From NCBI GenBank assembly GCA_034522055.1, contig JAXHLS010000002.1, positions 1,364,001 to 1,428,000 of the forward strand: a stretch of DNA of 64,000 bases, written 5' to 3'. How positions within the stretch are numbered: the stretch's first letter is position 1; each line of letters opens with the position of its first letter. The notes under the pieces were generated by a model. It did not search any database. It was not told the origin of the DNA and saw nothing but the letters and a program-made list of their open reading frames with translations. This document shows positions 19,475 to 29,148 of the stretch, one piece after another. This DNA comes from Gammaproteobacteria bacterium (GTDB taxonomy: Bacteria; Pseudomonadota; Gammaproteobacteria; JAABTG01). The translations under genes and the position numbers were made by a program.

Positions 19475-20311
19475 TCAGGGCTTTCGAAAATGCATGATGC
19501 CCCAGGCGAGATAGCCGTTGGCGCCGGCATCCACCCAGTGGCCCAGGCCCTTGATCATGCGGTCGATGTAATCCTCGGACACCTTGCCCTCGAGGGCCTC
19601 CCGGTGGTTGGCGAGTTCCTGGCGCACGCGGGTGTAGTGACGCACCAGCTGGGGCGTCAGGTCCTCGATCTCCACCTCCTGCCAGCCAAGGCGCGCGGCC
19701 TGCTCGCGATAGAAGGCGAAGGAACCCAGGCTATCCAGGTGGATGCGCTCCAGCACGGGATCGATGACCCCCGGGGGACAGTCGTCCGCCTGCATGGGAT
19801 CCGTGAACAGGATGTCACCGCCGGGCTTCAGCACCCGGTCCACCTCGTCCAGCACGCGGGCCCGCTGGCCCGAGTGGAGAATAGAGTCCTGGGACCAGGC
19901 GACATCGAAGCTGCCGTCGGCGGAAGGGATCTCCTCGAAGCTGCCGTCGATGACCTCCATGAGGTGACTGAGCCCCTGCTGTTCCGAGATCTCGCGATTG
20001 CGCCGGTTCTGGGCCTCGCTGAGGTTCAGGCAGGTGACGTGGCACCCGAAGGTGCGGGCCAGCCAGCGGCCCGCACCGCCATAGCCGGCTCCCAGGTCGA
20101 TGACCCGATGCTCCGGCCCCAGGCCCTTGAGGCGTGCGCCAATGGTGGCCACGGTGCGCTCCGATGCCACCCGGATGTCCTCGTCATCCGACTGGTAGAT
20201 GCCCACATGGATGTCCTCGCCACCCCAGATGTGGAAATAGAAGTTGTCCGCGTCGTCGCTGTTGTAGTACTCCCGCGCGGTGCTGACGACTTCAGAATAA
20301 TTGGCACTCAT
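19475..20311 (-). CDS. Sarcosine/dimethylglycine N-methyltransferase (SDMT)
   Basis: 278 residues. It uses SAM to methylate sarcosine and dimethylglycine, the last two steps of glycine betaine synthesis from glycine. SAM motif I is VIDLGAGYGGAGRWLA (about residues 70-85). The N-terminal stretch YYNSDDADNFYFHIWGGEDI is a signature of the Ectothiorhodospira/Halorhodospira-type SDMT, and the C-terminus ends in YLAWGIMHFRK as in homologues. Its start overlaps the GSMT stop by four bases (ATGA), which supports translational coupling. The genes together give de novo betaine, a major osmoprotectant of halophilic sulfur bacteria. Confidence 0.95.
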   Translation of the reverse strand: MSANYSEVVSTAREYYNSDDADNFYFHIWGGEDIHVGIYQSDDEDIRVASERTVATIGARLKGLGPEHRVIDLGAGYGGAGRWLARTFGCHVTCLNLSEAQNRRNREISEQQGLSHLMEVIDGSFEEIPSADGSFDVAWSQDSILHSGQRARVLDEVDRVLKPGGDILFTDPMQADDCPPGVIDPVLERIHLDSLGSFAFYREQAARLGWQEVEIEDLTPQLVRHYTRVRQELANHREALEGKVSEDYIDRMIKGLGHWVDAGANGYLAWGIMHFRKP

Positions 20312-21123
20312 TCCGTGTCCTCCTCGATGTATTTCTTCTCGGCCACATGGATGAAGAAGTCCGGCTCACCCTCCTTGTAGGTCTCCTTGAAGTCGCCATA
20401 GGTGGTGACGCGCTGGAAACCCACCTCCTTCATGAGGCGCTGGGTATAGGCCTTGCGCAGCGGGAACATGTTGAGGTGATAGGTGGATCCGTCGCTGAAT
20501 TCATAGCGGAAGCGGGCCAGGGACTCGTCCACATGCTCCGGGGTGGCGGACACGTCGTCGCCGCAATAGTAATAGTTGTGGGAGGGCTCCACCTGATGGT
20601 CCAGCAGGGCATCGTAGTTGCGCTGGTCCAGGATCAGGATGCCGTCATGACGCAGGGTGGCGTAGTACTCCGCCAGGGCCTTGCGGCGGTCCTTCTCGCT
20701 GTGGAGATGGGTGAAGGAGTTGCCGAGGCAGATCACCGCATCATACAGATCGTGGACGTCCTGGTTGAGCCAGCGCCAGTCGGCGTGGACGGTACGCAGG
20801 ATCTGGCCCCTCTTGCGGGCGTTCTCGAAGGCCTTGGCCAGCATCTCGGGGCTGCCGTCGGCGCTGGTGACTTCGAAACCGGCCTGCATCAGGCGCACGG
20901 AATGGAACCCCGTACCCGTGGCCACGTCGAGGACCTTCTTCGCCCCGTGCTTGCGCAACTCCTCGATGAAGAACTCACCCTCGGCCTCGGCGCGGCCCTC
21001 CCAGTCGATGAGGTCGTCCCATTTCTGGACGAAAGAGTGGACGTATTCCTCGGTGTACTGGTCCGTCTCGCGGACATCGAGGGGGTTGGCTCCGTAATCC
21101 TGTTCTTTATGGACGTTTAACAT
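20308..21123 (-). CDS. Glycine/sarcosine N-methyltransferase (GSMT)
   Basis: 271 residues. It catalyses glycine to sarcosine to dimethylglycine with SAM, the first two steps of the betaine pathway. The SAM-binding loop is VLDVATGTGFHS (about residues 65-76). The N-terminus TDQYTEEYVHSF and the Tyr/His-rich part near NYYYCGDD match the halophile GSMT family. AGGAGAT lies about six bases before the ATG at 21123. The gene begins 201 bp downstream of the amidotransferase gene, with a GC hairpin between, so it may be read from its own promoter or from the upstream cluster. Confidence 0.95.
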   Translation of the reverse strand: MLNVHKEQDYGANPLDVRETDQYTEEYVHSFVQKWDDLIDWEGRAEAEGEFFIEELRKHGAKKVLDVATGTGFHSVRLMQAGFEVTSADGSPEMLAKAFENARKRGQILRTVHADWRWLNQDVHDLYDAVICLGNSFTHLHSEKDRRKALAEYYATLRHDGILILDQRNYDALLDHQVEPSHNYYYCGDDVSATPEHVDESLARFRYEFSDGSTYHLNMFPLRKAYTQRLMKEVGFQRVTTYGDFKETYKEGEPDFFIHVAEKKYIEEDTE

Positions 21124-21324: not shown

Positions 21325-23334
21325 CTACGGATGCCAGCCCAACTGCCGGGCCTGCTCGCGGGCACGCCTGGGGATATCCCCCTTCACGAAATCCCTGTGA
21401 AGGATCTGGACGCCCAGCAGATGATTGATAAGCGCATCCAATTGGATCTGCGCCGCCGCCGTGGTATTGGGCGACTCGTGCTCCTCGAAGACCCCCGCCA
21501 CGCCATCCACGTTCAGCAGACCGGCATCTTCGATGGCCTGGGGACTGAGATGGCGGTCGGCAAGCACACGCATGGCCTGCCATTTCCTGGGATCGGTATG
21601 GGCGGGCGGCGCCATGAAGGCGAACTTCTCCCGCTTGTAGAGGGTATCGGGCAGGAGCCCCTTCATGGCCTCCCGTAACACGTACTTCTCGATGCGCCCG
21701 TGGATGCGCATGGTCGGCGGCAGGGTCGCCGCGAACTCCGCCAGATGATGGTCCAGGAAGGGCGGCCGGGCCTCCATGGAATTGGCCATGTCCACCCGGT
21801 CACCCCCCCAGGTGAGGATCTGTCCCTCCAGCATGGTCTTGATCCAGACGTACTGGGCCTTGTCCAAGGGATGCCGGCCCCGCAGGGCCTCGCTGTTCAG
21901 TTCCCGGGCGATGGCCTCGCCGGGGTCATAGCCCCTCAGGGCCTCGCGATGATCGTGGTGCAGCACGGCGGGCACCCGGGCGCTGCTGGCCAGCCACGGC
22001 TGCAGGCATGAGGGCGTGAAGCCGATGAGACTGTCCAGGGCCGGGTTATGTACCTCCTCCTCGGCCAGCATGGCGCCGCGGAAGGTCTCGTTGCTGTCGG
22101 ACAGTATGCGTTCCCATTCGCGCCGCTCGTCCGCCGGCAGGTGATCCAGGCCGTGGCGGAACATGTCGCGGCGAAATGCCGGGTAACCGCCGAACAGCTC
22201 GTCCGAGCCCTCGCCCGTCATCACCACCTTGTAGCCCACCTCGTTGACCCGCCGGCTCATGAGCAGCTTGGCCACCCCCAGGGTGTTGTAGATGGTGCGC
22301 TCGGTGTGCCACAGGGTCTCCTCGAAGTGCTCGTAGAGATGGCCCGACTCGATGCGCAGGATCTCCTGGTCGGCCCCCGTGGCCTCGGCCATCTCGGTGG
22401 CGATGGGGGTCTCGTCGTAGACCTCGCTGTCGAAGCCGATGGTGAAGGCCTTGACGGGATTCTGGGAGGCCGCGGCCGCGAGGCCGAGGATGGAGCAGGA
22501 ATCGATGCCCCCGGACAAATAGCAGCCCACCGGCACGTCGGCGGTCATGCGCAGTTGCACCGCGTCGACCAACTGCTCGCGGGTGCCCTCGATCCAGGGG
22601 GCCTCATCGGCTACGTGGATACGACTGGCATCCTCTTCGGGGAAGGGCACGTCCCAGTAGCACCATTCCTTGACATCCAGCCGGCCGTCCCGGCGGCGCA
22701 CCGTCAGCACGTGGCCGGGCTGCACCTGCCGGACCCCGGCGAAGGCCGTCTGGCCGGGCACCACCGTCTGCATCAGCTGGTGGAACAGGCCCGCGGAATC
22801 GAAGCGACATTCCACCTCGGGATGGGCGAAGATCACCTTGAGTTCCGAGCCGAACACCACGCCGCCGTCGATCTCGGTCCAGTACAGGGGCTTGATGCCG
22901 AAACGGTCGCGCACCAGGTGGAGGGTATCCTCGTCGCGGTCATAGAGGGCAAAGGCGAACTCGCCCCGCAGGTGGGGCACGGTGCCCTCCATGCCCAGGC
23001 GCGGGTGGAGATGCATGACGATTTCGGAATCGCTCTTGGTGCGGAACACCGCCCCCCGCGCCGTCAGATCGGCGCGGATACGCTGATAGTCGTAGAGTTC
23101 GCCGTTCTTGGTCAGCATGAGGCGCTTGTCCGCGCTGACGAAGGGCTGGCGCCCCCGGTTCTGGTCGAGGTCGATGATGGACAGCCGCGCGTGGCTCAAG
23201 CCCACCCCCTCCATGGCCTGCCAGCCGTAGCCGTCGGGGCCGCGGTGGTATTGGATGGCCGCCATGGCCACCAGGGTCTCGGGATCGACGGGGCGTTCCC
23301 GATCGGCGTAGATGTATCCTGCGATTCCGCACAT
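21325..23334 (-). CDS. Glutamine-dependent amidotransferase, asparagine synthase (AsnB) family
   Basis: 669 residues, longer than E. coli AsnB (about 554). The N-terminal glutaminase domain has the catalytic Cys2 (MCGIAGYIYADRE) and the RLSIIDL and NGELYDY motifs. The synthetase domain has the PP-loop SGGIDS in VGCYLSGGIDSCSILGLA (about residue 260) and the downstream GEGSDELFGGYPAF. It should transfer glutamine-derived ammonia to an adenylated carboxylate. The stop-to-start spacing to the carbamoyltransferase-like gene is only nine bases, so the two are co-expressed. Ordinary asparagine synthesis is possible, but the neighbours suggest another amino-acid amide (see findings). Confidence 0.9.
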   Translation of the reverse strand: MCGIAGYIYADRERPVDPETLVAMAAIQYHRGPDGYGWQAMEGVGLSHARLSIIDLDQNRGRQPFVSADKRLMLTKNGELYDYQRIRADLTARGAVFRTKSDSEIVMHLHPRLGMEGTVPHLRGEFAFALYDRDEDTLHLVRDRFGIKPLYWTEIDGGVVFGSELKVIFAHPEVECRFDSAGLFHQLMQTVVPGQTAFAGVRQVQPGHVLTVRRRDGRLDVKEWCYWDVPFPEEDASRIHVADEAPWIEGTREQLVDAVQLRMTADVPVGCYLSGGIDSCSILGLAAAASQNPVKAFTIGFDSEVYDETPIATEMAEATGADQEILRIESGHLYEHFEETLWHTERTIYNTLGVAKLLMSRRVNEVGYKVVMTGEGSDELFGGYPAFRRDMFRHGLDHLPADERREWERILSDSNETFRGAMLAEEEVHNPALDSLIGFTPSCLQPWLASSARVPAVLHHDHREALRGYDPGEAIARELNSEALRGRHPLDKAQYVWIKTMLEGQILTWGGDRVDMANSMEARPPFLDHHLAEFAATLPPTMRIHGRIEKYVLREAMKGLLPDTLYKREKFAFMAPPAHTDPRKWQAMRVLADRHLSPQAIEDAGLLNVDGVAGVFEEHESPNTTAAAQIQLDALINHLLGVQILHRDFVKGDIPRRAREQARQLGWHP

Positions 23335-23343
23335 GATTATTGG

Positions 23344-24402
23344 TTACGCAAAGCTCTTCAAAATCGTTGAAAGGAGCGCCATGCGCATATACACGGCGCC
23401 GCGGGCCTGGGCGAAGTACCAGTTATGGGGCGTGGCATCGAGGTCGCGGGACAGCTCTTCGCCGCGCGCCAGGGGATGCATGATGATGGCGTCGGGCTTG
23501 AGGGGCGAGTCGGCATCCAGACGATAACGGGCCCCCAGTTCCTCGTAGTTGCCACTCACCCAGGCGATGGCGTTGATGTAGATCACGTCGAGGTGGGGCA
23601 ACTCGGCGTCGAAATCCTGTGTCGTGCGTACCTTGAGGCCCACCTCCTCCAGTTCTTCCCGCTGCCCCTCGGCGAAGGGCTCCTGCTCGTCGCTCACCAC
23701 CACCAGCTCTTCCAGGGCGGGGGCGAACAGGGACAGGTAGATGAGCAGGCTGCGCACCGTACGCATGCGCCCCGGCACCCCCACGATGCCGAAACGGATC
23801 TTCTCCGTGAGATCGATATCGTCGCCGCACAGCTCCGGGCGCCATTTCAGCAGGGCGTAGATATCCGCCATCGCCTGGGTGGGATGCTCGTCGGTGCCGT
23901 TGCCGGCATTGACGATGGGTACGCGCAGGGACTCCAGCATCTCATACACCGCCTGTTCGTCGCCGTCTCTCAACACCACCAGGTCGCCGTAGTGATTGAG
24001 CATCTCGCCGATGTCATAGAGCGACTCCCCCTTGGCGATGCCGGTGGAGGCCGGATCGGTGATGGACATGATGTCCCCGCCCAGGCGGTGCCAGGCGCTC
24101 TCGAAGGACAGTCGGGTGCGCGTACTGGGCTCGTAGAACGCGCTGATCAGGATCTTGCCCGTGAGGGGCCGCACCTGATGCTGAGGCTGGGTCTCGTAGC
24201 GGGCAGCCAGGCGGGTGAGCTGCAGCAGCTGCTGGCGGCTGAACTGCCGTGCAGACACCACCGGCCGGTTCACCAGGTCCAGCAGGTGGGTCAGATCCTC
24301 CGGGATCCTGTCCAGCAGGGCGCGCGGGCGCTCGAAGCCCTGGACATCCAGCGGCTGCTCCTCCAGGGGATCGCGCAATCGGGGGTTGAGATGGTTCACC
24401 AC
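23344..24402 (-). CDS. Aspartate/ornithine carbamoyltransferase-family protein, probably with a different substrate
   Basis: 352 residues from a GTG start, with an N-terminal extension of about 40 residues before the fold. The carbamoyl-phosphate site is intact: FYEPSTRTRLSFESA, the KGESLYD lysine (E. coli PyrB Lys84), VLRDG (Arg105) and DEHPTQA (His134/Gln137). The aspartate-binding strand, in PyrB MTRVQKER with Arg229 and Gln231, reads INAIAWVSGN here, and the HPLPR loop reads HPLARG. A second amino-acid substrate other than aspartate is therefore likely. The frame overlaps a 40-codon membrane peptide gene upstream and runs nine bases into the amidotransferase. It is unlikely to be the housekeeping pyrB. 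Confidence 0.85.
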   Translation of the reverse strand: MVNHLNPRLRDPLEEQPLDVQGFERPRALLDRIPEDLTHLLDLVNRPVVSARQFSRQQLLQLTRLAARYETQPQHQVRPLTGKILISAFYEPSTRTRLSFESAWHRLGGDIMSITDPASTGIAKGESLYDIGEMLNHYGDLVVLRDGDEQAVYEMLESLRVPIVNAGNGTDEHPTQAMADIYALLKWRPELCGDDIDLTEKIRFGIVGVPGRMRTVRSLLIYLSLFAPALEELVVVSDEQEPFAEGQREELEEVGLKVRTTQDFDAELPHLDVIYINAIAWVSGNYEELGARYRLDADSPLKPDAIIMHPLARGEELSRDLDATPHNWYFAQARGAVYMRMALLSTILKSFA

Positions 24403-24518
24403 AGATGTCCTCGCTTCCAGTCACGAATCAGCAGGCCAAGCAGCAGGATCGGGGCGACGACGGTGACCGCGAGGGCCGCCAGCACCAGGATCTCGAAGGC
24501 TCCGGAAGAAATGGTCAT
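24396..24518 (-). CDS. 40-residue single-span membrane peptide
   Basis: A short gene that starts in an ATGA overlap with the symporter stop and ends inside the start region of the carbamoyltransferase-like gene (TGA at 24396-24398). It encodes MTISSGAFEIL followed by one hydrophobic helix (LVLAALAVTVVAPILLLGLL) and a short basic tail IRDWKRGHLW. Sodium/solute symporters often have a tiny partner subunit encoded next to them, so it may be an accessory of the transporter at 24515. The tight overlaps on both sides support translation. Confidence 0.7.
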   Translation of the reverse strand: MTISSGAFEILVLAALAVTVVAPILLLGLLIRDWKRGHLW

Positions 24519-25981
24519 GTCATTGCCCCTCCATCTGCGCCAGGCATCTGCGCCGGGTGGGTCTCGTTCAGGGTCTCCCAGTCGAACATGCGGGGCGCCA
24601 GCCAGGTGGAGAGCAGCACACAGGCCATGGATACCGCGGCACCCACCAGGGCGGCCACGTAGAAACCGATGGCGAAATAGCCGTAGAGGCCGGCGGCGCT
24701 GCCCAGCACCATGCCGGCGATGGCGCCGGTGGGGTTCACGCGCCGCCAGAACAGCCCCGCGGCGATGGGCCAGATGGTGCTGGCCACGAAGGCGCCGGTG
24801 AAATAGAGCAACTCCGCCAGGGTGGTGAGGCGCGGCGCGCACAGCAGCCACGTCAGCACCCCGAGACCGACGATGATCCACGAGGTGGCACGCCGCATCT
24901 CGGTGGCGCTGGCGTGGGGCTTGAAATGGCGCCGGTAGATATCCTCCACCACCAGGATGCTGGTGGCCGCCAGCAGGGAGTCGAGGCTGGACGACAGGGC
25001 CGAGAACACCATGATGAGCACCAGCACCGCCCCCGTGACCCCGAGGATCTTGGCCGCCACCATGGGTCCCACCATGTCGGCGGCGGGTACGTTGAGGGCC
25101 AGGGCCGGCGTGGCCAGGGCCACGAAGCCCGCGACCACCGGGATGGGGGCCCACAGGATGCCGGCGAGGGTGTAGGCCTTGAAGCCCACCCCGGGCCGGA
25201 AAGAGAAGGCGCGACTCCACCACACGTTGGAGTGGAAGATCTCGCCCACGCCGAACAGCAGGTTGTTGAACAGGAACATGATGGCCGCCGGCATCATCAG
25301 GTTGAGCAGCTCCGGGCGTTCCTCCAGCACCGTCTGATGGATCTCGTCGAACCCCACCTTCTCGATGGCGAGGAAGGCGATGACCACCAGCCCCGACAGG
25401 ATCAGCAGGGCCTGGATGAAATCGGTGCCGATGACCGCGCGGAAGCCCCCCAGAAGAGTATAGGCCACGCAGATGGTGAGGATGACCGTCATGCCGTAAT
25501 GGTAGGGGATGCCGGTGAGGGCATGGATGAGGATCCCCCCGGCCATGCCCATGCTCACCAGCCAGCCCAGGCTGTAGAACAGGGAGATGGCGAGGAACAC
25601 CCGCCACGCCGTATTGCCGTAACGGATGCGCACGAAATCGCCGCTGGTATAGCCGTTGGGCATGAGCCTGCGGATACGCCGCGCCAGGGGCGCGAACATC
25701 AACAGGCCCACCGAGCCCAGGGAGTACCCCAGCATGCCCCAGATCCCCATCTGGAAGGCGAGCTGGGGCGCCGCCATGGTGGTGTTGCTGGTCACCCAGG
25801 TGGCCATGGCGGTGGCGGTACCGAGAGCGAGGCCCACGCCCCGCCCCGCCAGCACGTAGTCGTCCAGCTTCTTGGCATGACGCCCCCAGTACCAGCCCAG
25901 GGCCACCCACACCATGCTGAACAGGGCGAGGATCAGCCAGCCGATGCGGGCATCCAGGATGGCGCTGTTGACGGCATTCAT
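24515..25981 (-). CDS. Sodium/solute symporter (SSS, SLC5 family)
   Basis: 488 residues with about 13 membrane helices, the LeuT-fold SSS family that couples uptake of sugars, amino acids, choline or vitamins to sodium. Family landmarks include the sodium-site region near ATAMATWVTSNTTMAAP, the GGFRAVIGTDFIQ loop and the SALSSSLDSLLAATSI helix. The substrate cannot be read from the sequence. It overlaps the isochorismatase-like gene upstream by four bases and the 40-residue peptide downstream by four, so it is part of the same transcription unit. Uptake of the solute handled by the neighbouring enzymes is the simplest role. Confidence 0.92.
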   Translation of the reverse strand: MNAVNSAILDARIGWLILALFSMVWVALGWYWGRHAKKLDDYVLAGRGVGLALGTATAMATWVTSNTTMAAPQLAFQMGIWGMLGYSLGSVGLLMFAPLARRIRRLMPNGYTSGDFVRIRYGNTAWRVFLAISLFYSLGWLVSMGMAGGILIHALTGIPYHYGMTVILTICVAYTLLGGFRAVIGTDFIQALLILSGLVVIAFLAIEKVGFDEIHQTVLEERPELLNLMMPAAIMFLFNNLLFGVGEIFHSNVWWSRAFSFRPGVGFKAYTLAGILWAPIPVVAGFVALATPALALNVPAADMVGPMVAAKILGVTGAVLVLIMVFSALSSSLDSLLAATSILVVEDIYRRHFKPHASATEMRRATSWIIVGLGVLTWLLCAPRLTTLAELLYFTGAFVASTIWPIAAGLFWRRVNPTGAIAGMVLGSAAGLYGYFAIGFYVAALVGAAVSMACVLLSTWLAPRMFDWETLNETHPAQMPGADGGAMT

Positions 25982-26724
25982 GAGGTCACCACCTCCACCA
26001 GTTCCGCCAGGGCCTCTTCGGCGGTGAGGACGCGGGCGTAGCGATCCTTCATGGTGGTGATGGTGGCCTTCTGCAGGTCCGGGGTCACGGTGGCGCAGCC
26101 GTCGGCGATCAGGGTCACGTAGAAACCCAGATCACAGGCATCGCGAATCGCCGTGGACACGCACTCGTTGCTGTACACCCCCACCACGAACAGCCCGGTG
26201 ATGCCGAGGTTGCGCAGCAGGTATTCCAGGTTGGTCGAAGTGAACACCCCGCTCGCCGTCTTATTGAGGACGATCTCATCGCCCTGGGGCGCCACCTCCT
26301 CGAGGAACTCCGCCTCCTTGGAACCGGGCGGCGCGTGGAGGCCCAGCCGCTTGTGGCCGGCGCTGCGGTCCCGGCCATCGAGGGTGAGGGACTGGATGCG
26401 GGTGTGGATCACCTCCAGCTCGCGGCTGCGGAAGGCATCCTGGAGGCGCCGCACGTTGGGCAGCACCACGTACTCGAGGCGGTCGAAATAGTACTCCTGG
26501 GCCTCGGGCGGCACCCCCGAGGCCTCCACGTCGGCGAACACCCCGTAGTCCCGGGCCGCGTCCAGATACTGCATGTCGATACACAGCAGGGCGGTATGGT
26601 GGGTGGCCAGGGAGCGGGTGACGGCCGGCGAGTGGGTAATGGACTTGCGGTAGGTATCCCGCAGGGGATCCACGTCCAGAAAGTGCTTCACCTCCGTCGG
26701 TCTCGGGTTCATTTCGTCGCTCAT
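25978..26724 (-). CDS. Isochorismatase-like cysteine hydrolase (amidohydrolase)
   Basis: 248 residues from the ATG at 26724. The Asp-Lys-Cys triad is visible: Asp in LLCIDMQYLD (about residue 50), Lys in IVLNKTASGVF and nucleophile Cys in GVYSNECVSTAIRDAC. Family members hydrolyse amides or carbamoyl groups, for instance N-carbamoylsarcosine amidase, ureidoacrylate hydrolase and nicotinamidase. The N-terminal 40 residues are extra. Between the symporter and an N-carbamoyl-amino-acid hydrolase, removal of an amide or ureido nitrogen is the best guess. The four-base overlap with the symporter and 11 bp to the next gene indicate one operon. Confidence 0.88.
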   Translation of the reverse strand: MSDEMNPRPTEVKHFLDVDPLRDTYRKSITHSPAVTRSLATHHTALLCIDMQYLDAARDYGVFADVEASGVPPEAQEYYFDRLEYVVLPNVRRLQDAFRSRELEVIHTRIQSLTLDGRDRSAGHKRLGLHAPPGSKEAEFLEEVAPQGDEIVLNKTASGVFTSTNLEYLLRNLGITGLFVVGVYSNECVSTAIRDACDLGFYVTLIADGCATVTPDLQKATITTMKDRYARVLTAEEALAELVEVVTS

Positions 26725-26735
26725 GGTCCCGGCCC

Positions 26736-27971
26736 TCAGGCCGCCAGCCGGCGGATGGTGTTCAGCAGGACATTGGCACCCAGCTCGATGTCGTCCCAGG
26801 CGGTCCACTCGGCCGCGGAATGGCTGCGGCCCTCCTTGCTGGGCACGAAGATCATGCCCGACGGCGCGATGGCGGCGAGGATCTGGGCATCGTGGGCGGC
26901 GCCGCTGTGCAGCCGCATGGACTCCACCCCCGCCGCCGCCGCGGCCTGCTCCACCGCCCCCACCACCGTGGAGGCACACTGCACCGGCGCCACCTCGCTC
27001 AGCACCTGGAACTCGAACATCAGGTTGCGGCGCCGCGCGATGGCGGACAGGGTGCGCCGAAAGGCCTCCCCCAGGTGCCCCAGGGTCTCGGGATCGGTGT
27101 CCCGCACGTCCAGGGAGAATATGGCCTGGCCCGGCACCACGTTGGCCGCACCGGGCAGGAGCTGCACCCGCCCCACCGTGGCCACGCTGCGCGGGCTGCC
27201 ATGTTCCTCGAGGACGCGCTCGACCTCGGTGGCGAATTCGGCCAGCCCCAGCAGGGCATCCTGGCGCATGTTCATGGGGGTGGTGCCGGCATGGTTGGCC
27301 ACCCCGGTGAGGCGCACCTCCCACTTGAACAGGCCGGCGATGGCCTCCACCACTCCCAGGGAGATCCCCTTACGGTCCAGCACCGGACCCTGCTCGATGT
27401 GGAGTTCCACGTAGGCATGGATGGACTCGGGCCGGCGCTGGGCGCGCAGCGTGCTGTGGGCATCGAGACCGCGGGACGCCATGGCATCCACCAGGGTCAC
27501 CCCGGTCAGGTCGCGGGCCCCGTGGATATACTCTGGGGTCACTTGTCCCGCCATGGCCTGGGACCCCAGCAGACCGCCGAAGCGCCCCTCCTCGTCGGTG
27601 AAGGAAACGCCCTCCACGGGCCGGGACAAGGCCACACCCTGCTCCTTCAGCACCCGCAGCGCCTCCAGGGCACATACGACGCCCAGGGCGCCGTCCAGGT
27701 AACCCGACGCGGGTACGGTATCCAGGTGCGAACCCGACATCACGCTTGGCTTGCCCTCCTGCCAGCCGAGGCGCGCGAACAGGTTCGCGGCCCCGTCCTG
27801 GTGGAAATCCAGGCCCGCCGCCATTACCCGCTCCTGGAACCAGGCCCGGCCGGCCATGTCGCCGTCGGAGAAGGCCATGCGGTAGACGCCATGGTCCTCG
27901 CCGCGACCGATGCCGGAGAGTGCTTCCAGATCGGCGCGTAGCCGCTCGCCATTGACCCGTAATTCATCCAT
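26736..27971 (-). CDS. M20-family N-carbamoyl-L-amino-acid / allantoate amidohydrolase
   Basis: 411-residue zinc hydrolase of the HyuC/AllC branch of peptidase family M20, which releases carbon dioxide and ammonia from N-carbamoyl amino acids or ureides. Metal ligands are seen in SGSHLDTVPASGYLDGALG and FTDEEGRFGG, and a late His in RSHSAAEW. The dimerisation-domain motif ELHIEQGP and GVANHAGTTPM are diagnostic of the carbamoylase/allantoate group rather than of ordinary peptidases. The start overlaps the upstream membrane-protein stop by one base. With the isochorismatase-like enzyme it forms a likely ureide-degrading pair. Confidence 0.92.
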   Translation of the reverse strand: MDELRVNGERLRADLEALSGIGRGEDHGVYRMAFSDGDMAGRAWFQERVMAAGLDFHQDGAANLFARLGWQEGKPSVMSGSHLDTVPASGYLDGALGVVCALEALRVLKEQGVALSRPVEGVSFTDEEGRFGGLLGSQAMAGQVTPEYIHGARDLTGVTLVDAMASRGLDAHSTLRAQRRPESIHAYVELHIEQGPVLDRKGISLGVVEAIAGLFKWEVRLTGVANHAGTTPMNMRQDALLGLAEFATEVERVLEEHGSPRSVATVGRVQLLPGAANVVPGQAIFSLDVRDTDPETLGHLGEAFRRTLSAIARRRNLMFEFQVLSEVAPVQCASTVVGAVEQAAAAAGVESMRLHSGAAHDAQILAAIAPSGMIFVPSKEGRSHSAAEWTAWDDIELGANVLLNTIRRLAA

Positions 27972-28393
27972 CAGGATGCATCCTCCCGGGCGCCATGCAC
28001 GATGAGGCCGAGGGTGGACAGGAAGACGACGCCGCCGATGCCGAAGAACAGGAAGGCACGCGACAGGGGATGGTGCTCCACGGTCACCACCACGGCCTCA
28101 CTCCATGCCACCGGCCGGCCGTCTTCCAGGGCGGCGAGGCGAAAGTGGGAGATACCGTCGGGCTGCCCGGACAGAACGCGCGCGCGGTCGGGTCCCTCGT
28201 ATTCCGTCTGGGGGCTCTCGAATGCCGCCGTGGAGGCCCGCTCCAGGCGCACCAGGGGGGTCTCCGCCTGCCACTCGAGGCGGAAATAACCGGCGGTGGC
28301 CCGCGCCGCGTCGGTTTCGAGCACGGGGGCCGCCGCAACGGGCGCGACGGCCCCCAGCAGCAACGCCCAGGCGACGAGACGGCCGCGCGCCAC
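27971..28393 (-). CDS. Small secreted/membrane-anchored protein, first gene of the cluster
   Basis: 140 residues, function not recognised. A signal peptide (ARGRLVAWALLLGAVAPVAAA) is followed by a beta-rich domain of about 80 residues with a fibronectin-III-like look (YFRLEWQAETPLVRLERAS), then a C-terminal membrane helix (AFLFFGIGGVVFLSTLGLIV) and a short tail. A periplasmic domain anchored in the inner membrane is thus predicted. It is the first gene of the operon with the carbamoylase, so it is presumably regulated by the divergent MarR protein. A role in sensing or in helping the transporter is possible. Confidence 0.6.
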   Translation of the reverse strand: MARGRLVAWALLLGAVAPVAAAPVLETDAARATAGYFRLEWQAETPLVRLERASTAAFESPQTEYEGPDRARVLSGQPDGISHFRLAALEDGRPVAWSEAVVVTVEHHPLSRAFLFFGIGGVVFLSTLGLIVHGAREDAS

Positions 28394-28459: not shown

Positions 28460-28479
28460 ATGAATTTTAAAGGATTCAT
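28460..28479. promoter_or_regulatory. Candidate MarR operator in the divergent promoter region
   Basis: In the 227-bp space between the marR start and the cluster, the dyad ATGAAT-TTTAAAGG-ATTCAT (20 bp) stands in an AT-rich stretch unlike the surrounding GC-rich DNA. Size and symmetry fit a MarR-type site. Another small hairpin, CCATG-TAAAGG-CATGG, lies near 28514-28529. No promoter hexamers are assigned. Confidence 0.35.
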
Positions 28480-28620
28480 TTTAACCCAAAAGAAACCATA
28501 AGTAACTTTAGCCCATGTAAAGGCATGGATGGTTTAAGCGGCTGTAAATGATGCAAAAATGATTTTGGCACCGATTGAGCATACGATTCGGGCCCGAAAC
28601 AGATTGAGGTATTTCCTGCC

Positions 28621-29148
28621 ATGTCGAGCACCTCTCGGGTCGACGAGATCCTGATCGCCCTGCGCCGCGTCATGCGGGCAGTGGACCTGCATTCCCGCAG
28701 CCTGGTACAGACCCACGGCCTCACCGGCCCCCAGGCCCTCATTCTCAAAGCCTTGACCGACAAGCCCCTCATCGCGGGGGTGTTGGCGGAGCGCGTGAGC
28801 CTCAGTCAGGCCACGGTCACGGATATCCTGAACCGATTGGAGCAACGGAGTCTGATCAAACGCACACGCTCGGAGGAGGACCGCCGGCGGGTGATCGTGG
28901 AGGCCACGGGCGCCGGCAAGGCACTGCTCGCCACCTCGCCCCCGCTGCTGCAGGAGCGCTTCGCCAAGCGCTTCGAGGAACTGGCGGACTGGGAGCAGAC
29001 CACCCTGCTGGCCGCCCTGCAACGCATCGCCGCCATGATGGACGCCGAAGACCTGGATGCCGCGCCCCTGCTCTCCATCGGCTCCGTGCGGGCATCGCCC
29101 GAGGCCCTGAAGAGCGTCCTCGGGCCAGAGGAGGAGGCGCCCTCCTGA
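28621..29148 (+). CDS. MarR-family transcriptional regulator
   Basis: 175 residues, winged helix-turn-helix. The recognition region AERVSLSQATVTDILNRLEQRSLIKR and the wing RTRSEEDRRRVIVEATGAG are typical, flanked by the N- and C-terminal dimerisation helices. MarR proteins usually repress divergent genes and release DNA on binding a small ligand. It is divergent from the carbamoyl/amide cluster and shares its 227-bp promoter region, so it is likely that cluster's regulator. It is not adjacent to a drug pump. Confidence 0.92.
   Translation: MSSTSRVDEILIALRRVMRAVDLHSRSLVQTHGLTGPQALILKALTDKPLIAGVLAERVSLSQATVTDILNRLEQRSLIKRTRSEEDRRRVIVEATGAGKALLATSPPLLQERFAKRFEELADWEQTTLLAALQRIAAMMDAEDLDAAPLLSIGSVRASPEALKSVLGPEEEAPS

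Follow-up and report, generated by a model that had tools for sequence, protein, structure and literature searches.

A carbamoyltransferase without aspartate side-chain ligands and its AsnB-family partner as the predicted synthesis pair for the osmolyte CGA in Gammaproteobacteria

Our analysis of a 64,000-nt stretch of a gammaproteobacterial genome (here referred to as the window) revealed an operon encoding CT, a carbamoyltransferase of the aspartate transcarbamoylase (ATCase) fold that lacks the ligands of the aspartate side chain, together with an AsnB-family amidotransferase. We propose, with a probability of roughly 0.75, that these two enzymes make CGA: CT would carbamoylate glutamine, AsnB would amidate the alpha-carboxylate, and the symporter and hydrolases of the operon would recover and degrade the product. 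CGA, an uncharged solute that serves Ectothiorhodospira marismortui as an osmolyte (PMC1224877), was described in 1991 by Galinski and Oren (cited in PMC3857566). It is stated for one organism only, E. marismortui being again named as the source (PMC3857566), and our literature search found no genes for CGA.

CT is a protein of 352 amino acids translated from a GTG start. Both PF02729 and PF00185 scored over the gathering threshold, and the carbamoyl-phosphate motif (STRTR...HPTQ) was intact. The top PDB matches were aspartate transcarbamoylases (2rgw and 1ml4), with approximately 30 to 36% identity to solved ATCases, and the AlphaFold2 model (mean pLDDT of 88) matched ATCase over about 300 residues with a Z of about 37. 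Nevertheless, CT passed none of the cut-offs of the curated models that it matched for ATCase, ornithine transcarbamylase (OTCase), YgeW and putrescine transcarbamylase. It reached 184 bits against a cut-off of 237 for TIGR00670 and 186 against 263 for NF002032 (both ATCase), 89 against 281 for TIGR00658 (OTCase, for which it also carries HPLA instead of the HCLP motif), 30 against 500 for TIGR03316 (YgeW) and 72 against 500 for TIGR04384 (putrescine carbamoyltransferase). An identity as an aspartate or ornithine transferase was thus rejected by the family models. Homology to ATCase begins only at residues 41 to 48, so that the N-terminal extension of about 40 residues, which the initial annotation had pointed out, is genuine, and conservation extends over its second half. 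The overlap of the GTG start with the end of a membrane-peptide gene, remarked on in the same place, amounts to 7 nt (GTGGTGA).

To define the active site, we aligned CT and 84 orthologues (85 sequences in total) to E. coli PyrB, and CT itself to solved ATCases. The STRTR motif falls on Ser52, Thr53, Arg54, Thr55 and Arg56 of ATCase, K124-G-E on Lys84, LR145 on Arg105, H173PTQ on His134 and Gln137, and R214-T-V on Arg167, whereas the equivalent of Ser80 is either Thr120 or Gly121, depending on gap placement. Ser52 to Arg56, Lys84, Arg105, His134 and Arg167 were invariant over all 85 sequences and Gln137 was kept in 84, which bears out the earlier claim that every carbamoyl-phosphate residue checked is retained. 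The segment Y275-I-N-A-I-A-W-V sits on YMTRVQKE, placing Ala278 at the position of Arg229 and Ala280 at that of Gln231, and the HPLPR of ATCase reads HPLAR in CT. Both changes had been read from the single protein; they proved to be a property of the whole clade. Position 229 holds Ala in 63 sequences, Ser in 13, Thr in 8 and Lys in 1 (Arg in 0/85), position 231 holds Ala in 79, Ser in 3, Val in 2 and Leu in 1 (Gln in 0/85), and position 268, Pro in ATCase, is Ala in 85/85. The two ligands are lost, not relocated in the alignment; beside their former positions, all sequences share two new residues, Asn277 and Trp281, and the 240s loop is three residues shorter than that of ATCase. In ATCase, Arg167 holds the alpha-carboxylate, while Arg229 and Gln231 hold the side chain of aspartate. 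A binding site that keeps Arg167 but not the ligands of a side-chain carboxylate fits a neutral alpha-amino acid, and the predicted substrate of CT is therefore one whose side chain carries no carboxylate. This supports, at the level of residues and with the activity itself inferred, the earlier suggestion of a transferase for an amino acid other than aspartate, for which no substrate had been named. Ala at 229 and 231 rules out the usual aspartate contacts, yet by itself is no proof of glutamine.

In the phylogenetic tree, the CT clade stood apart from PyrB and ArgF, with a group of degenerate paralogues as its sister; support was 100/100 for CT plus the paralogues and moderate (81/48) for a single origin of the CT clade alone. 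The genome of the window contains three other family members, namely ArgF (L001), an ordinary PyrB with LRLQNER (L002), for which the initial annotation had advised a search, and one such paralogue (G000:C2:413235-414236; L030:8215-9363). The latter is 37 to 39% identical, and with its carbamoyl-phosphate loop degenerate (NSRSHTR, KGE missing) it is probably a pseudo-enzyme; it lies beside SH3-like, ABC ATPase and permease genes, and relatives were found in five further genomes (G001, G002, G013, G180 and G289). Given its separate clade and degenerate loop, we rejected it as a partner of or alternative to CT. That CT itself might be a degenerate pseudo-enzyme was rejected because its carbamoyl-phosphate site is intact throughout the clade. 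One orthologue, from a Candidatus Tenderia metagenome-assembled genome (L083:10001-11038), carries a single in-frame stop codon, reflecting either decay or a sequencing error.

The operon runs in the order o140, M20 hydrolase, isochorismatase-type amidase, Na+/solute symporter, 40-amino-acid peptide, CT and AsnB, with a MarR gene in divergent orientation and two methyltransferase genes, GSMT and SDMT, following AsnB (Table 1).

Table 1. Features of the CT operon and its surroundings (positions within the window)
Feature	Position	Strand	Evidence
SDMT, sarcosine/dimethylglycine N-methyltransferase	19475..20311	−	NF041675 407 bits, below cut-off 550
GSMT, glycine/sarcosine N-methyltransferase (glycine betaine synthesis)	20308..21123	−	NF051855 500 bits, cut-off 350
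AsnB-family glutamine-hydrolysing amidotransferase	21325..23334	−	TIGR01536 423 bits; TIGR03104 313 bits, cut-off 570
CT, ATCase-fold carbamoyltransferase without Asp side-chain ligands	23344..24402	−	PF02729/PF00185, PDB matches, 85-sequence residue table, tree, AlphaFold2 model
40-aa single-helix membrane peptide, ending ...RDWKxGxLW	24396..24518	−	Conserved in 60 loci
Sodium:solute symporter (SSS)	24515..25981	−	PF00474; conserved beside CT
Isochorismatase-type cysteine amidase	25978..26724	−	PF00857
M20 hydrolase, N-carbamoyl-L-amino-acid hydrolase type	26736..27971	−	TIGR01879 399 bits, cut-off 204 (met)
o140, small protein with N- and C-terminal hydrophobic segments, first operon gene	27971..28393	−	Conserved
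Conserved block TTTTGGGTTAAAATGAAT upstream of operon	28474..28491	−	Similar block in L033, L037, L039, L041
MarR-family regulator, divergent	28621..29148	+	PF12802/PF01047; nearby in other loci

The AsnB protein keeps Cys2, SGGIDS and GEGSDELF, and its matches include lasso peptide cyclase models. A paralogue in the same genome (L152:6837-8651; G000:C2:2609836), 33% identical and located in a polysaccharide/glycosyltransferase region, is probably an XrtA/PEP-CTERM amidotransferase. The M20 hydrolase belongs to the hydantoinase/carbamoylase family of N-carbamoyl-L-amino-acid hydrolases (top PDB match, 3n5f, itself such an enzyme); it differs in being linked to the proposed synthesis of an N-carbamoyl compound and not tied to hydantoins, and its proposed role is removal of the carbamoyl group. 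Biuret, ureidoacrylate and N-carbamoylsarcosine amidases are among the solved relatives nearest to the isochorismatase-type amidase, for which we propose hydrolysis of the 1-amide, while the symporter is proposed to import the pathway product. The peptide gene overlaps both the symporter stop and the CT start, its C-terminal Trp is invariant, and an NCBIfam search returned no match; we propose that it is an accessory subunit of the symporter. Profile-model searches assigned o140 to no family, and it accompanies the symporter even where the hydrolases are absent. The block TTTTGGGTTAAAATGAAT, matched only once in the window, lies between the operon and the divergent MarR gene, whose product is proposed to regulate the operon, and is a candidate promoter or MarR operator.

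The link between CT and AsnB was examined in 369 gammaproteobacterial genomes, with a threshold for CT orthologues of E < 1e-110 (the next group appeared at 1e-80). CT orthologues were present in 22 genomes and AsnB orthologues in the identical 22, against 1.3 shared genomes expected (nominal hypergeometric p of 7e-36, not corrected for kinship). An AsnB of another genome (G154; 505 bits, no CT) was set aside, having unrelated neighbours. Both genes occurred together in 63 of the 64 named loci with enough sequence. In a second member of the genus (G001), the contig ends at the start of CT, and the missing AsnB is therefore not informative. The seven-gene order was found again in different families of Gammaproteobacteria, and 25 of the 54 named loci whose flanks are complete have exactly these seven genes. 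Others are devoid of whole modules: Ectothiorhodospira operons lack the transporter part and Idiomarinaceae operons the hydrolases. In Thiorhodospira sibirica, CT lies with the 40-amino-acid peptide and AsnB elsewhere, both being kept though unlinked. The transporter part, the hydrolases and CT-AsnB are thus separable modules, with CT-AsnB as the constant core. A diverged operon from another part of the phylum (L156; G494:C3:400500-419500; CT 46% and AsnB 49% identical) retains the order o140-SSS-CT-AsnB and reads NAIA at the 229 region, with an M20 gene nearby on the opposite strand.

The genomic context points to L-glutamine as the substrate and to an osmolyte pathway. The operon in the window adjoins betaine synthesis genes, and genomes with CT are enriched for GSMT (11/22 against 1.5 expected). 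The named hosts belong largely to marine or haloalkaliphilic genera. A link to the ectoine pathway was also considered and rejected, as ectoine synthase occurs in 2 of the 22 genomes, with 3.0 expected. Making CGA from glutamine requires carbamoylation of the alpha-amino group and amidation of the alpha-carboxylate, precisely the activities expected of the CT/AsnB pair. In further support of this, the documented producer carries both genes. Strain DSM 4180T is listed as the E. marismortui type strain (PMC7824335), a name merged by NCBI with E. mobilis, and the genome of Ectothiorhodospira mobilis DSM 4180 (L071) encodes M20 hydrolase, amidase, CT and AsnB in a row. It contains three PF02729 genes, which leaves CT as the only one besides ArgF and PyrB; carbamoyltransferases outside PF02729 are not covered by this count, and an unrelated enzyme might make CGA in this strain. 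No CGA was seen when E. marismortui extracts were examined by Raman spectroscopy, though that study lacked a reference spectrum (PMC3857566). For Thioalkalivibrio strains that carry the operon, the published solutes are glycine betaine along with some sucrose, without mention of CGA; these reports neither exclude nor support it. Our search of the literature on Thioalkalivibrio and Kangiella brought up no mention of the operon.

The pathway that we propose builds on the observed fold, residues, operon, co-occurrence and occurrence in the producer strain; substrate, reactions and step order are inferred, as are transport, degradation and regulation, which rest on gene family and position. CT would transfer the carbamoyl group from carbamoyl phosphate onto the alpha-amino group of L-glutamine, with Arg214 (the Arg167 equivalent) gripping its alpha-carboxylate and Ala replacing the Arg and Gln that serve the aspartate side chain. 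Because Arg167 is kept, this step probably comes first. The AsnB-type enzyme would then activate the alpha-carboxylate with ATP and amidate it, a second glutamine supplying the ammonia. Leaked CGA would be taken back by the symporter with its small peptide, perhaps with the help of o140. When salt falls, the isochorismatase-type amidase would open the 1-amide and the M20 hydrolase would free glutamine. The MarR repressor may control the operon.

This scheme parallels the operon for the osmolyte N-acetylglutaminylglutamine amide (NAGGN), in which an AsnB-type amidotransferase performs the last step, a hydrolase gene is present and a MarR repressor is encoded in divergent orientation (PMC8070244). 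The NAGGN pathway (asnO-ngg, PA3459-PA3461) likewise yields an uncharged glutamine-derived osmolyte whose alpha-carboxylate is capped by an AsnB-family enzyme, and amidation is predicted to be the last step for CGA as well. The two differ in the N-terminal cap, which would be a carbamoyl group added by an ATCase-type enzyme here and is an acetyl/dipeptide from Ngg in NAGGN. Moreover, AsnB of the CT operon failed the NAGGN amidotransferase model (313 against 570 bits for TIGR03104), and the operon has no Ngg-type gene.

The same two-step chemistry could act on another neutral amino acid, such as Asn or Ala, and yield a different N-carbamoyl amino-acid amide osmolyte. The residues show merely that no side-chain carboxylate is bound by Arg229/Gln231, and the diverged G494 copy could differ in substrate; we nevertheless consider this unlikely, as the producer strain has the glutamine derivative as its documented solute and encodes just one such CT. 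The M20 hydrolase, the isochorismatase-type hydrolase and the symporter would also fit a nitrogen-scavenging ureide pathway, in which an imported N-carbamoyl compound is opened by the hydrolases and CT runs in reverse to give carbamoyl phosphate, and the cluster around E. coli YgeW, which includes a hydantoinase and a kinase, does look catabolic. This appears quite improbable, however, for the operon has no carbamate kinase and the gene that constantly accompanies CT encodes a synthetase that uses ATP, whereas the hydrolases can be missing, as in Idiomarinaceae and T. sibirica.

AsnB-like enzymes, including those behind the lasso peptide cyclase matches, also occur in natural-product clusters, and the pair might make a ureido-amide specialised metabolite or signal instead of an osmolyte. 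The absence of other biosynthetic genes, the linkage to betaine synthesis and the match to the producer leave this with very little weight. Finally, CT could be a divergent but true aspartate carbamoyltransferase with a different set of aspartate ligands, considering that its nearest solved structures are all ATCases. We regard this as barely credible: CT shares with PyrB the fold, the carbamoyl-phosphate site, Lys84 and Arg167, but both aspartate side-chain ligands are missing clade-wide, the 240s loop, residue 268, the conserved extension and the AsnB partner set it apart, its scores fall under the ATCase cut-offs, and a separate PyrB exists in its own genome and in the sampled carriers.

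CGA was previously known as a molecule, and its synthesis by CT and AsnB would add two genes and a mechanism, with dozens of named, often culturable carriers in which the prediction can be tested directly. If it holds, a textbook enzyme family would gain a new transferase specificity, and genes that standard annotation likely calls PyrB and asparagine synthase would be explained. T. sibirica, said to be without annotated osmotic stress genes (PMC7824335), would acquire a candidate solute. CGA would then probably be in wide use as an osmolyte among marine and soda-lake Gammaproteobacteria, including Thioalkalivibrio, Ectothiorhodospira, Kangiella, Idiomarinaceae and Thiodiazotropha symbionts, and in a few bacteria outside the class.
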